Positions 20,441 through 26,758 of a stretch of 34,988 nucleotides of DNA are shown here, one piece after another. The translations under genes and the position numbers were made by a program. The stretch spans positions 1 through 34,988 of the forward strand of contig DRPG01000170.1 of assembly GCA_011376105.1 (NCBI GenBank), written 5' to 3'. A model generated the notes under the pieces. The model worked only from the letters and a program-made list of their open reading frames with translations, made no database searches and had not been told where the DNA came from. The first letter of the stretch is position 1. Every line of letters begins with the position of its first letter. This DNA is from Deltaproteobacteria bacterium. Lineage in GTDB: Bacteria > Myxococcota_A > UBA796 > GCA-2862545.

Positions 20441-20526
20441 CGCGGCGGGCGGGGGGGGGAGCCACCCCTCCGCCCCACGGTGCCTTCCTGATACAACAGG
20501 TAGTGTGATCTCGTCTGGGGCCGGTG

Positions 20527-23070
20527 ATGGACCTTCTCGACCGACCGTTTCCGCAGGCGATCGAGGCTGAGCGAGCGCTGCTCGGCGGTCTGCTGCAGCA
20601 ACCCGACCAGCTCTCGACCGTCGGCGAGGCGGTGCAGCCCGATGACTTCTACCGACCCGAGCACGGAGCCCTGCTCAAGCTGCTCCTCGAGATGCATGGT
20701 CGCGGGGAGAGCATCGATCTGGTCACCGTCTCCGATCGGATCACCCGGGAGGGCCAGGCCCAGCGCTTTGGTGGGGTCGCCTATGTGGTGGAGCTGCCCG
20801 AGCACGTCCCCAGCACCGCGAACCTGCCCCACTACGCCGAGGTCATCAAGGACAAGTCCACGCTGCGGGAGCTGATCCGCGCTGCGCGGGAGCTCGCCGA
20901 GCAGGCCTACCTCCAGCCCGAAGACGTCAGTCAGCTGGTCGAGCAGGCCGCCAAGGACTTCACCGGGCTGGGCCGGGGCGGGAGCCGACGCTCCTGGCGT
21001 CAGATCAGCCTGATCGTCGACGAGGAGCTGCTCCGGATCGAGAAGCTCTCCGAGCGCGGCGGCACCACCACCGGAGCCACCACCGGCTTCGTGGATCTCG
21101 ACAAGAAGCTCGCGGGGCTACAGCCCACCGATCTGCTGATCCTCGCCGCCCGGCCCGCGATGGGCAAGTGCCTGGCGGCGGGCTCGGGGATCCTGCTCTC
21201 CGATGGCCGGGTGGTGCCCCTGGAGGAGGTCGTGGCCCGGCGCCGGGCCGATCTGATCCGCCTCGACGACGATCTGCGGCTGCGGCCCGGTCGCGCCAGC
21301 GACTTCATCGACGACGGCATCAAGCCCCGGTTCGAGGTCCGCACCCGCCTCGGGCGTCGGGTGCGCACCACCGCGACCCACCCCTTCCTCACCTTCCGGG
21401 GCTGGCGGCCCCTGGCCGAGCTGAAGGTGGGGCTGAGGATCGCCGTGCCTCGTCGGATCCCTGTCTTCGGGGATCAAGGCGTCGGGCTACAGCGGGCGCG
21501 GCTGCTGGGCTACCTCGTGGCCGATGGCGCCCCCGGGGAGTCAGGCAACGCCGGCCCGGAGCTCTCCCGGGAGCTGACCGCGCTGGTTCAGGAGCTGAGA
21601 GCACCACGATCCTCCTCCTGTGCACACGCACCCTCGCCCGCTGAGCTCCGGGGTGGGGCTGACGAGGCCCTGTTGCGCTGGCTCGGAGGCCACGGGCTGG
21701 CGGTGGCCGGGCCACAGCGCCGGGTCCCCGAGGCGATCCACACCGCGCCCCGCCCAGAGATCGCGGCCTTCTTGAGCCGGCTGTTCGCGATCGATGGCGC
21801 TGCCTCCGTGTCGGCTCCGGGTCGGCCCCGGATCGTGCTGACCTCCTCCAGCGAAGCCCGGGCCCGCCAAGTCCAGCACCTGCTGCTGCGCTTCGGGATC
21901 CTCTCCCGTGTCGAGGCGCTGGAGGGGGAGGGGTCGGGGGGCCCCCCCACCTGGCGGATCGGGATCACCCACCCCGACAGCGTCTGTGCCTTCGCCGAGG
22001 AGATCGGCATCCAGGGCCGTGCCTGTGCCGTCGAGCGCGCCCGCCGGGCCGCTGAGCAGGGGCCGGAAGACGACAGCGACACGTTCCCCGGCGAGATCTG
22101 GGCCCGGATCGATGCAGCCCGTGGCGCCCGCCCCTGGGCGGAGATCTTCGAGATCCTGGGACCCGATCCAGTGGCGAGGGGGGCTCTGTCCCGGGCCGGG
22201 CTGGCTCGGATCGCTGCTCACCTCGGGGATCGGGGCCTGCAGGAGCTGGCGGGGGGCGACGTCTGCTGGGACGAGATCGTCGCGATCGAGGCGATCGGCC
22301 CCGGGCAGGTCTACGATCTGACCGTGGACGAGGTCCACAACTTCGTGGCGGACGACGTCTGCGTCCACAACACCGCCCTGGCGCTGAACATCGCCCAGAA
22401 CGTCGCCCTGATCGAGGAGGTCCCGGTCGGGCTGTTCTCCCTGGAGATGAGCCGGGGCCAGCTGGTGACCCGGATGCTGTGCTGTCACGGCCTGGTGGAC
22501 GCGGGCAGGGTCCGCACCGGGGGCCTCGACACCGAGGACTGGGAGCGCTTCCTGCACGCGTCCGAGCACCTGCGCAAGGCCAATATCCACATCGACGACA
22601 CCCCGGGGCTGTCGATCGGAGACGTCCGGACCCGGGCGAGACGGCTGAAGGCCGAGCACGACAACCTGTCCCTGATCGTGATCGACTACCTCCAGCTGAT
22701 GAAAGGCGACGATCCAAGGAGCCCCCGGGAGCAGCAGATCTCGAGCATCAGCCGGGGGCTGAAGGCCCTCGCCAAGGATCTCGAGTGTTCCGTGCTTGCG
22801 CTGTCTCAGCTCAACCGTGGGGTGGAGAGCCGCCAGGACAAGCGCCCGCTGGTCTCTGATCTTCGGGAGAGTGGTGCCATCGAGCAGGATGCGGATGTCA
22901 TCATGTTCATCTACCGCGACGACTACTACAACCCAGAGTCCCTGGATCGGGGGCTGGCGGAGGTCATCATCGCGAAGCAACGCAACGGCCCTACGGGCAC
23001 GGTGAAGCTGGCCTTCCAGGGTCAGTTCACCCGGTTTGATAACTACCTGGAAGATGATCTCTTGCTGTGA
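20527..23070 (+). CDS. dnaB: Replicative DNA helicase DnaB, interrupted by an intein
   Basis: PQAIEAERALLGGLLQQP; ARPAMGK | intein | TALALNIAQNVAL; DYLQLMKG; LSQLNRGVESRQDKRPLVSDLRESGAIEQDAD; start could also be GTG 20524. Confidence 0.95.
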   Translation: MDLLDRPFPQAIEAERALLGGLLQQPDQLSTVGEAVQPDDFYRPEHGALLKLLLEMHGRGESIDLVTVSDRITREGQAQRFGGVAYVVELPEHVPSTANLPHYAEVIKDKSTLRELIRAARELAEQAYLQPEDVSQLVEQAAKDFTGLGRGGSRRSWRQISLIVDEELLRIEKLSERGGTTTGATTGFVDLDKKLAGLQPTDLLILAARPAMGKCLAAGSGILLSDGRVVPLEEVVARRRADLIRLDDDLRLRPGRASDFIDDGIKPRFEVRTRLGRRVRTTATHPFLTFRGWRPLAELKVGLRIAVPRRIPVFGDQGVGLQRARLLGYLVADGAPGESGNAGPELSRELTALVQELRAPRSSSCAHAPSPAELRGGADEALLRWLGGHGLAVAGPQRRVPEAIHTAPRPEIAAFLSRLFAIDGAASVSAPGRPRIVLTSSSEARARQVQHLLLRFGILSRVEALEGEGSGGPPTWRIGITHPDSVCAFAEEIGIQGRACAVERARRAAEQGPEDDSDTFPGEIWARIDAARGARPWAEIFEILGPDPVARGALSRAGLARIAAHLGDRGLQELAGGDVCWDEIVAIEAIGPGQVYDLTVDEVHNFVADDVCVHNTALALNIAQNVALIEEVPVGLFSLEMSRGQLVTRMLCCHGLVDAGRVRTGGLDTEDWERFLHASEHLRKANIHIDDTPGLSIGDVRTRARRLKAEHDNLSLIVIDYLQLMKGDDPRSPREQQISSISRGLKALAKDLECSVLALSQLNRGVESRQDKRPLVSDLRESGAIEQDADVIMFIYRDDYYNPESLDRGLAEVIIAKQRNGPTGTVKLAFQGQFTRFDNYLEDDLLL
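21169..22371 (+). mobile_element. Intein (~401 aa) with LAGLIDADG-type endonuclease motifs, inserted in the DnaB Walker A loop (GK^T)
   Basis: Starts CLAAGSGILLSDGRVVPLEEV; block B TATHPFLTFRGWRPLAEL; LLGYLVADGA and FLSRLFAIDGA; ends VYDLTVDEVHNFVADDVCVHN then T. Confidence 0.95.
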
Positions 23071-23274: not shown

Positions 23275-24354
23275 ATGGAATCGATGGACAAAGCCGAGCT
23301 CTTGGCAAGCTTCACTGAGCGTGTCGATCAGTTCGACAGGTACCAGAGCTTCATCTCCAAGGCTCAGGAGCAATCTGGAAAGTTTGCCGCCGCTGTCGTG
23401 GAGAAGGTCGTCGCCGACAACGAGTCAAAGTCGATGGAGGTCGTCAGCGAGCTCGTCCCCCTGATGGCCGACATCGAGGCGATCATCGAGGATCTGCGCG
23501 CTCAACGCGCTGAGGCCCTCGACTCCTCGAAGGAGTCGCAGTTTCGCCTCGAGGAGCTCGAGCTGAGGCTCGCGATCGGCGATCTATCCGAGAAGGACTT
23601 CAACGCTGAGGCGTCCGAGTTCAAGGGTGTGGTCGACTCCACTGAGACCAAGGTCGCCGAGCTCGATGGAGAGCGGGTCCTGTTCGAGGAGGCCCTGTCG
23701 CGCTGGCACGAGCTGGGCACCAGCGCGGGCGTGCTCGCCAACGGTGCCTCGCAGCCCAACGGCGCACACCACGCAGACGATCCAGCGGGGTACGACGACT
23801 ACAGTCATCAACCCGAGCTGGACGCGGATCTCGACTACGAGGCCCAGCCCATGCCAGAGCCCGACATCGTGCTCGAGGCCGATCCCGGCGCTGATCCAAT
23901 CGAGACCTTCGACGTCGCCGGCGACGATCTCGGGTTCGAGGACGCGCTGGTCGACGACAACGCCTTCGAGGTCGATGATCTCGATCTGGTCGAGTCCGAC
24001 AACGAGCTGGATCTCGGCGACTCGGGCTCCGACTTTGCCGATGACAAGGACAAGCCCCGCAGAGCGGTCCTGCTGTACCAGGAGGGCACCGCGGAGGAGC
24101 AGATCTACCCCTTCACCGGGGAGATGATGTCGCTGGGGCGAGGCCGGGACAACGAGGTGCAGGTCAAGAACGACTCAAAGGTGAGCCGATACCACTGCAA
24201 GCTGTATCGCCGGGGCCCAAACTTCTACATCGAGGACAACAAGTCGGCGAACGGCACGCTGGTCAACGGCGAGCTGATCACCGAGCGGCGCCTCTTCGGT
24301 GGAGAGGAGGTCATCATCGGTGAGACCTTCTTCCGGTTCCGGATCCTGGACTAG
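23275..24354 (+). CDS. Coiled-coil protein with acidic linker and C-terminal FHA domain
   Basis: FTGEMMSLGRGRDNEVQVKNDSKVSRYHCKLYRRGPNFYIEDNKSANGTLVNGELI; start may be ATG 23275 or 23284. Confidence 0.88.
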   Translation: MESMDKAELLASFTERVDQFDRYQSFISKAQEQSGKFAAAVVEKVVADNESKSMEVVSELVPLMADIEAIIEDLRAQRAEALDSSKESQFRLEELELRLAIGDLSEKDFNAEASEFKGVVDSTETKVAELDGERVLFEEALSRWHELGTSAGVLANGASQPNGAHHADDPAGYDDYSHQPELDADLDYEAQPMPEPDIVLEADPGADPIETFDVAGDDLGFEDALVDDNAFEVDDLDLVESDNELDLGDSGSDFADDKDKPRRAVLLYQEGTAEEQIYPFTGEMMSLGRGRDNEVQVKNDSKVSRYHCKLYRRGPNFYIEDNKSANGTLVNGELITERRLFGGEEVIIGETFFRFRILD

Positions 24355-24450
24355 CCGGGCAAGCGCCCTGGCCCCGGGAGCCGTCGCTCCTCGTGGGCAG
24401 GAGGATCGCCGCGGAGCCCCGACGGGCCTGCCCGAGTCAGCGGAGGACAG

Positions 24451-24747
24451 ATGGATCTCGAGCGGATCCGGATCGCAGTGCGCCATGATCTACGCTCGCC
24501 CCTCTCGGTGATCGTCGGTCGGGCCGATCTGCTGCTGGAGGGGATGGCGGATCCTCTGACCCCCCGACAACGACACTCGGTGCAGGCGATCCTCCGGGCC
24601 GCTGAGCGGATCCAGGACCTGCTCGACGAGATCGTGGTGCACACCACACCCGACGAGCCACCCGACGAGCTGCCCGACGAGCTGCCCGACGAGCCACCCG
24701 ACGAGCCACCCGACGAGCTGCCCGACGAGCTGCCCGACGAGGGGTGA
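24451..24747 (+). CDS. HisKA (DHp)-only miniprotein with PDE(P/L) repeat tail, no ATPase domain
   Basis: RIAVRHDLRSPLSVIVGRADLLLEGMADPLTPRQRHSVQAILRAAERIQDLLDEIV is an H-box two-helix segment; then PDEPPDELPDELPDEPPDEPPDELPDELPDEG-stop. Confidence 0.7.
   Translation: MDLERIRIAVRHDLRSPLSVIVGRADLLLEGMADPLTPRQRHSVQAILRAAERIQDLLDEIVVHTTPDEPPDELPDELPDEPPDEPPDELPDELPDEG
24649..24741. repeat. 12-bp coding tandem repeat, eight units (last truncated at 9 bp)
   Basis: CCCGACGAG[CCA/CTG] units ordered P,L,L,P,P,L,L,(G). Confidence 0.95.
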
Positions 24748-24910: not shown

Positions 24911-25516
24911 ATGGCGCGAAGGAAGAACGACAGCTCGAGCCCCATCTACTACACGACCCACCAGGTCGCGGGGTTCCTCGGTGTGTCGTTGCCGACGGTG
25001 GTCAACTGGGTGAACTCGAAGCGCCTTCGGGCCCACCGCACCCCGGGCGGGCACCGCCGGATCGCGCACAACGACATCATCGCGTTCGCCCGGGAGCACG
25101 ACTACCCGCTGGCCCCCGAGCTGCTGAATGCACCAGGGGATCGGGCGCGGATCCTGGTGGTCGACGACGAGAACGACTTCTCGGAGATGGTGCGGGACTA
25201 CCTCGTCATCAAGGGGGACTTCGAGGTGGAGATCGCCGACTCCGGGTTCCAGGCCGGCTTCGCCGTGGCGCGCTTCAAGCCCGATCTCATCCTGATGGAT
25301 CTGCTGATGCCTGACATGGATGGCTTCGAGGTCCACCGGACCCTGCGCAGCGATCCCGACACCCGCCACGTGCCGGTGATCGCCTGCACCGCGTTCCGCG
25401 ATCCCTCGATCAACCAGAGGATCGCAGAGGAGTCCTTCGATGGCTTCGTCGAGAAGCCCCTGAAGCTGGACGCGCTGCTGGAGCTGATCCGGGAGAAGCT
25501 CGGGATCAGCTCCTGA
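24911..25516 (+). CDS. Response regulator with N-terminal excisionase/BldC-type HTH and C-terminal receiver domain
   Basis: YYTTHQVAGFLGVSLPTVVNWVNSKRLRAHRTPGGHRRIAHNDI; REC: ILVVDDEND, DLILMDLLMPDMDG, ACTAF, EKPLK. Confidence 0.9.
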   Translation: MARRKNDSSSPIYYTTHQVAGFLGVSLPTVVNWVNSKRLRAHRTPGGHRRIAHNDIIAFAREHDYPLAPELLNAPGDRARILVVDDENDFSEMVRDYLVIKGDFEVEIADSGFQAGFAVARFKPDLILMDLLMPDMDGFEVHRTLRSDPDTRHVPVIACTAFRDPSINQRIAEESFDGFVEKPLKLDALLELIREKLGISS

Positions 25517-25520
25517 GCCC

Positions 25521-26369
25521 TCAGGAGGGGGGCCTGTCCCACAGGGGAGGGCTCGCCTGGCCGTCCCCGCCCCGGGCCGGGAGCGGCAAGGCTGAGAGCG
25601 GCAGCGGGGGACGATCGGCACGCCTACGCACCCGCACCAGCTCCGCTGCGATCGCCACGGCGATCTCAGCGGGGGTCTCAGCCCCCAGATCGAGCCCCAC
25701 CGGCGCAGACAGCTTGCGGAACAACGCCTCGGGCACACCGGCGGCCCGGTACCGGACGAAGAACCGGGCGACCTTGGCCCGGCTGCCGATCATGCCGATC
25801 CAGGCACAGGTCTTGGGCAGCAGGATCTCGACCAGATCCTGATCGAGCCGGTGATCATGAGTGACGACGAGCCAGTGAGCGTGAGGATCGTCGTCCAGGG
25901 CCCGCGCATAGGCGAGGGGATCCTGGGTGTGGAGGGTGGCGTGGGGAAAGGCCTCGGGGAGCGCCAGCTCATCTCGCTCGTCCACGATGGTCACGTCGAA
26001 GTCCAGCGCGTGCAGCAGCGGGACGGTGGCCCGTGCGACGTGGCCGGCGCCGAACACCACCATCGGGACCCGGCTCTGGATTGGATCGATGTAGACCTCC
26101 ATGCGTCCGCCGCAGCACATGCCCAGATCCTGGGTGAGGTGGACCGCCAGCCGCTCAGGGCGCCCCGCCTCGATCGCTCCGATCGCGGCCCGGCGGGCGC
26201 GGTGCTCGAGCGCACCCCCACCGATCGTGCCCACGATGCTGTCGTCCTCGTAGACCAGCATCCGTGCGCCGCTGGCGCGGGGGGTGGAGCCTCCGACCCC
26301 GATCACGGTCACGAGCGCTGCGCGGCGACCGGTGCGCCGGGCCTCAGCAGCGGCAGCAAACACGTCCAT
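25521..26369 (-). CDS. XdhC/CoxI family protein
   Basis: ALVTVIGVGGSTPRASGARMLV; VGTIGGGALEHRARR; QDLGMCCGGRMEVYIDP; VVFGAGHVARATVPLLHALDFDVTIVDERDE. Confidence 0.9.
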   Translation of the reverse strand: MDVFAAAAEARRTGRRAALVTVIGVGGSTPRASGARMLVYEDDSIVGTIGGGALEHRARRAAIGAIEAGRPERLAVHLTQDLGMCCGGRMEVYIDPIQSRVPMVVFGAGHVARATVPLLHALDFDVTIVDERDELALPEAFPHATLHTQDPLAYARALDDDPHAHWLVVTHDHRLDQDLVEILLPKTCAWIGMIGSRAKVARFFVRYRAAGVPEALFRKLSAPVGLDLGAETPAEIAVAIAAELVRVRRRADRPPLPLSALPLPARGGDGQASPPLWDRPPS

Positions 26370-26456
26370 CCCGCGATCCTAACCTGACGAGCGGCAGGTG
26401 GGCGTCATCGCGAAGCACCGGGTAAGGAAGCGGAGATCTGCGGGTCTCCAGGCGGG

Positions 26457-26758
26457 GTGATCGGGGTGATCGGGGTGATCGGGGTGATCGGGCTGATCGG
26501 GCTGATCGGGCTGAGAAGGGGGCAGGCCCGGGGAGCGCCCTGGGTGTTGTGGGGGCTGGCTGAGGCTCCTCCAGGGCTGCTGGGCCCGCAGGGCTTGCTG
26601 GAGCTGTTGCCGGGGCTGGGCCCGCGCCTGGCGGCTCCGGGGCCGTTGCCGGGGCTGGGCCCGCGCCTGGCGGGTCTGGGGCTGTTGCTGAGCCTGGGGC
26701 CGCTGCTAGGCCCCCTGGGGCCGCTGCTAGGCCCCCTGGGGCCGCTGCTGGGCCAGGA
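26457..26758. repeat. Successive tandem repeats: 9-bp (6 copies), 29-bp (2 copies), 21-bp (~3 copies)
   Basis: (G/C)TGATCGGG x6 at 26457-26510; GTTGCCGGGGCTGGGCCCGCGCCTGGCGG at 26606-26634 and 26645-26673; GGGGCCGCTGCTAGGCCCCCT at 26696-26716 and 26717-26737 plus partial. Confidence 0.92.

Follow-up and report, generated by a model that had tools for sequence, protein, structure and literature searches.

In the window, that is, the whole stretch of 34,988 nucleotides that we analyzed, a gene lying between an FHA-domain gene and a gene for an HTH-REC regulator encodes a 98-residue protein with the HisKA (DHp) part of a histidine kinase and no HATPase domain (Table 1). We consider it an even bet that this gene is the remnant of a kinase once paired with the HTH-REC regulator, pared down to its DHp hairpin, kept by selection, and serving as what we infer to be a phosphotransfer protein.

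Table 1. Features of the locus, in window positions
Feature	Position	Strand	Remarks
FHA-domain gene, conserved upstream partner	23275..24354	+	DHp start overlaps or abuts FHA stop in most relatives
DHp-only gene (HisKA without HATPase), 98 aa	24451..24747	+	His12 codon 24484-24486; GGAGG 24442-24446
Two-helix DHp hairpin, residues 3-65	24457..24645	+	H12 and D13 invariant in 17/17 DHp-only orthologues
C-terminal tail, eight PDE(P/L/G) tetrapeptides	24649..24744	+	12-bp tandem array, only in window genome
HTH_17/MerR-like and receiver regulator (HTH-REC), 201 aa, likely partner	24911..25516	+	D-D-D-T-K phospho pocket intact
XdhC-family gene, conserved syntenic flank	25521..26369	-	

The Pfam HisKA model (PF00512) matches residues 10-61 of the protein, including His12, at 45.5 bits (7.6e-12; the curated cut-off is 26.9), and AlphaFold, run on an alignment of 15 relatives, predicts two helices (residues 3-29 and 38-65) with pLDDT above 90 across most of the hairpin. 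The ATG of the gene lies 4 nt downstream of the GGAGG ribosome site. Pfam detects no HATPase_c domain C-terminal to the DHp, which sets the protein apart from HisKA histidine kinases, and none is possible in any frame, because only 163 bp separate its stop codon from the next ATG. These results bear out the earlier note, which had described a HisKA-only protein with an H-box hairpin around His12 and no ATPase domain readable before the next gene. The genome has 44 HisKA matches, and no other lies in an open frame shorter than 261 aa. A scan for sigma-70 promoters and terminators at the locus returned none, and a phage origin of the gene was rejected since no match was found.

The count of eight acidic, proline-containing tetrapeptides after the hairpin is also confirmed, seven being PDE(P/L) and the last PDEG. 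At the DNA level the tail is an AABBAABB array of eight 12-bp units, a pattern that indicates a recent expansion by slippage. The tail was found in none of the DHp-only orthologues, which rules it out as a conserved element. Its proposed role as an adjustable linker does not hold either, because the repeat is terminal and nothing lies beyond it to join; it would be dispensable. Elsewhere in the window, a 668-aa ORF begins with a nine-base tandem repeat (26453-26514), which encodes an IGV/IGL repeat.

The slot was read in more than 50 genomes by anchoring on the FHA gene upstream of it, whose C-terminal domain is conserved at 66-95% identity throughout the order. Every public record for these relatives is an uncultured MAG, and most bear the title Deltaproteobacteria, Proteobacteria or Myxococcota; on these titles we would place the order in Myxococcota, as the one that contains MAG UBA796. 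At L126, L137, L144, L153, L168 and L176, genomes of the order match records named as Klebsiella pneumoniae or Bifidobacterium breve, and these names look wrong. In some genomes the contig ends within the locus, and in the same-genus genome G001 it stops about 200 bp past dnaB, so that the slot is uninformative there. The dnaB gene of G001 is a 514-aa open frame; that of the window (20524-23070) contains what resembles an intein, inserted in frame at the P-loop from about residue 219 to about residue 616, with GK/C and HN/T as its borders.

A DHp without HATPase occupies the slot in 17 genomes (the window genome and 16 others) of three families, namely, 11 genomes of the window's family (G000, G012, G014, G018, G009, G010, G020, G011, G008, G003 and G006), which span nine genera with intact frames, five of f2 (G030, G026, G043, G056 and G055), and G028 of f5. 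A short match in G019 (C99) was rejected as an orthologue, being a piece of a PAS-type kinase (HELRSPL). The occurrence of the ATPase-less form in the same slot of the 16 other genomes excludes the truncating frameshift that the earlier note had raised, and an assembly artefact is likewise ruled out by the same form in many MAGs. The note had also proposed a survey for homologues of the same length; the DHp-only form does recur, but the length varies, as eleven of the proteins end 51-62 residues past the His, the tails of G000 and G003 are longer, and the proteins of f2 genus g20 carry about 65-75 extra residues. The next gene is HTH-REC in 16 of the 17 genomes (15 of 16 excluding the window genome); G006 has the DHp gene, and its best HTH-REC match (38%) is on another contig. 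Across all genomes read, the slot is followed by HTH-REC and then usually by xdhC, apart from those with a contig end or with no HTH-REC gene at the locus (G002, G004, G007, G016 and G042). At L068, L070 and L071, the sole in-frame start before the H-box is a CTG overlapping the FHA stop (CTGA), pointing to either a rare start or a frameshift fusion to FHA. Fusion of FHA and DHp by TAG readthrough (the two are in the same frame in the window genome), or by a -1 frameshift in G009, G012 and G018, is a less simple explanation than overlapping starts.

The same slot holds a full-length kinase of 655-781 aa in nine g15 genomes, G051, G058 and G033, and a kinase split across contigs in G024. All five slot kinases checked with Pfam have a HisKA-HATPase-GGDEF architecture, four of them with an N-terminal REC. 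In the proteins of G045 (471 aa) and of the outgroup G069 (241 aa), which resemble intermediates, Pfam finds HisKA and no HATPase, and the class outgroup G065 has HisKA and HATPase behind the FHA gene. In G069 (L181, 2461-3617), an AMMECR1-like gene, identified by eye, and the DHp gene both lie between FHA and HTH-REC. The slot is empty in f3, f4, f6, G060, G054 and four f1 genomes.

Full kinases in genomes of two other families, together with the empty slots, are what one would expect of a functionless, decaying pseudogene of a former kinase, and the earlier note had named kinase-bearing relatives as a sign of a degraded gene. The relatives do exist; the degradation is not borne out, because 11 genomes of the family have an unbroken short form that is under purifying selection. 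In six disjoint pairs of DHp-only genes, 242 of 780 sites differ at codon positions 1 and 2, versus 239 of 390 at position 3 (p 5e-23). Pairwise dN/dS values range from 0.14 to 0.46, and the codon-position test is the safer of the two because dS is near or beyond saturation. By this codon asymmetry, the DHp-only gene is shown to be under purifying selection. With frames also intact in the two other families, and with DHp starts that overlap or abut the FHA stop, we regard a pseudogene as very improbable.

The best matches of the window protein beyond the DHp-only set are the same-slot kinases of G033 and G024 (42% over 60 aa). In a tree of concatenated FHA, XdhC and DnaB, whose deep nodes are weakly supported, DHp-only G055 is sister to full-kinase G053 (support 100), DHp-only G028 is sister to full-kinase G033/G024 (99), and, within f2, genus g20 is a DHp-only clade of its own (100). 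Compared with the G053 kinase, the G055 protein retains a pseudo-REC (37%, 4e-11) and the DHp (44%, 1e-15), the intervening and following parts being gone; judged by this alignment, it derives from its sister's kinase by simple internal deletion. When regain of domains is charged at least twice as much as loss, a root with a full kinase scores best (12 versus 13-15); at equal costs no root state is favoured. Read on this tree, the full kinases of the slot gave rise to DHp-only forms on at least three occasions.

Among the 17 DHp-only proteins, the His and the Asp at H+1 are invariant (17/17 each), and the Arg at H+3 and the Pro at H+5 are nearly so (16/17 and 15/17, respectively). Position H+4 is T/N in nine, S in five (including the window protein, Ser16) and G in three, versus S in all ten full kinases aligned. 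In HisKA proteins the acidic residue at H+1 is needed for kinase but not for phosphatase activity, and work on CrdS in Myxococcus found that T/N at H+4 is required for the latter (PMC3510030). The bare DHp hairpins of HK853 (PMC5727384) and of EnvZ, a case cited in the same paper, can interact with and dephosphorylate their regulators, although these are engineered fragments and the window DHp is a natural gene. The hairpin may therefore be a stand-alone phosphatase acting on HTH-REC~P that a different kinase or a small-molecule donor has charged, as the nine proteins with T/N would suggest; however, the S or G in the other eight, the window protein included, and the strict retention of an Asp dispensable for phosphatase activity in the proteins tested (PMC3510030) make this unlikely.

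The best Foldseek matches of the hairpin are DHp regions of the kinases RetS, GacS and ERS1, with RetS-GacS DHp complexes at the top; every E-value is 0.18 or higher, as a short hairpin would give. This ranking is in line with a non-catalytic dimeriser or decoy, forming heterodimers with a full kinase via its DHp or holding the regulator without using its His, and the CA-truncated ChrS pseudokinase of C. glutamicum does work without its His (PMC9491836). Such a protein would need neither His12 nor Asp13, both invariant over 17 divergent orthologues, and we rate this explanation lower still than a phosphatase. Of the three roles offered in the earlier note, phosphotransfer, sequestering dimeriser and decoy, the first is the best candidate: an invariant H-D pair with a variable H+4 is more in keeping with a phosphate carrier than with a phosphatase or a decoy. 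Lineages with T/N at H+4 may also be phosphatases.

Wherever the slot holds a DHp or a kinase, the HTH-REC receiver pocket (D, D, D, T, K) is intact. Clear decay is confined to f4/f6, which have neither: all 11 genomes of these groups that were read (L076, L077, L079, L080, L087, L089, L093, L096, L105, L116 and L118) have lost the pocket and kept the HTH. Slot-empty G054 shows one conservative pocket change (D to E). An intact pocket also occurs in four f1 and two f3 genomes that lack a DHp gene in the slot, so the DHp is not always needed. Decay of the pocket with loss of the slot gene supports the putative DHp/HTH-REC pairing, short of proof because the f4/f6 loss is one clade-level event.

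Most likely, then, the protein would be a Spo0B/ChpT-like phosphotransfer protein, reduced to a bare DHp, for the adjoining HTH-REC. A histidine kinase without a CA domain cannot autophosphorylate, and the DHp-only protein would be likewise incapable of self-phosphorylation. It would dimerise into a four-helix bundle, and His12 would take phosphate from another donor, either a receiver belonging to a different kinase or a CA domain supplied in trans; no donor was identified among the 44 HisKA matches of the genome. Phosphate would then move from His12 to the receiver Asp of HTH-REC, or drain back, placing the regulator under the control of a distant kinase.

Like the window protein, Spo0B of Bacillus and ChpT of Caulobacter have a kinase-resembling DHp, and both relay phosphate through a His without self-phosphorylation, as presumed here. 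Unlike it, ChpT has a degenerate ATPase-like domain, as does Spo0B, whereas the PDE tail alone follows the window hairpin; outgroup G069, with a C-terminal region lacking a Pfam HATPase, looks more like these two. ChpT is a dimeric histidine phosphotransferase with a DHp four-helix bundle (PMC3433190). PhyT of Sphingomonas, a kinase with a degenerated catalytic domain, is a receiver-to-receiver phosphotransferase encoded beside its target regulator (PMC5898713), but it is membrane anchored, has an HRxxN-type DHp and still contains its degenerate ATPase domain. P2CS files proteins with HisKA or HPT and without HATPase or receiver as 'phosphotransfer proteins' (PMC2716373); the window protein has exactly this domain content, though the class is a database category only, and no conserved, syntenic, selected family within it was found described in the literature examined. 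The earlier note's undescribed component therefore stands as a conserved HisKA-only gene beside a REC gene, not as a wholly undescribed kind, given P2CS, Spo0B, ChpT and PhyT.

Kinases are the presumed ancestors of ChpT, Spo0B and PhyT, and the intermediate steps are rarely seen. Here, full kinase, kinase without detectable ATPase (G045 and G069), pseudo-REC with DHp (G055), bare DHp and no gene share one syntenic slot. We tentatively propose, at slightly less than even chance, that within one Myxococcota order the kinase of one kinase-regulator pair has shed its ATPase several times in separate lineages, with a selected bare DHp phosphotransferase of about 65 residues as the stable end point, and that the order would thereby hold a natural rewiring series in which a two-component pair turns into a phosphorelay. 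How a kinase becomes a phosphotransferase, along with the fate of the partner receiver, is open to testing with natural orthologues.
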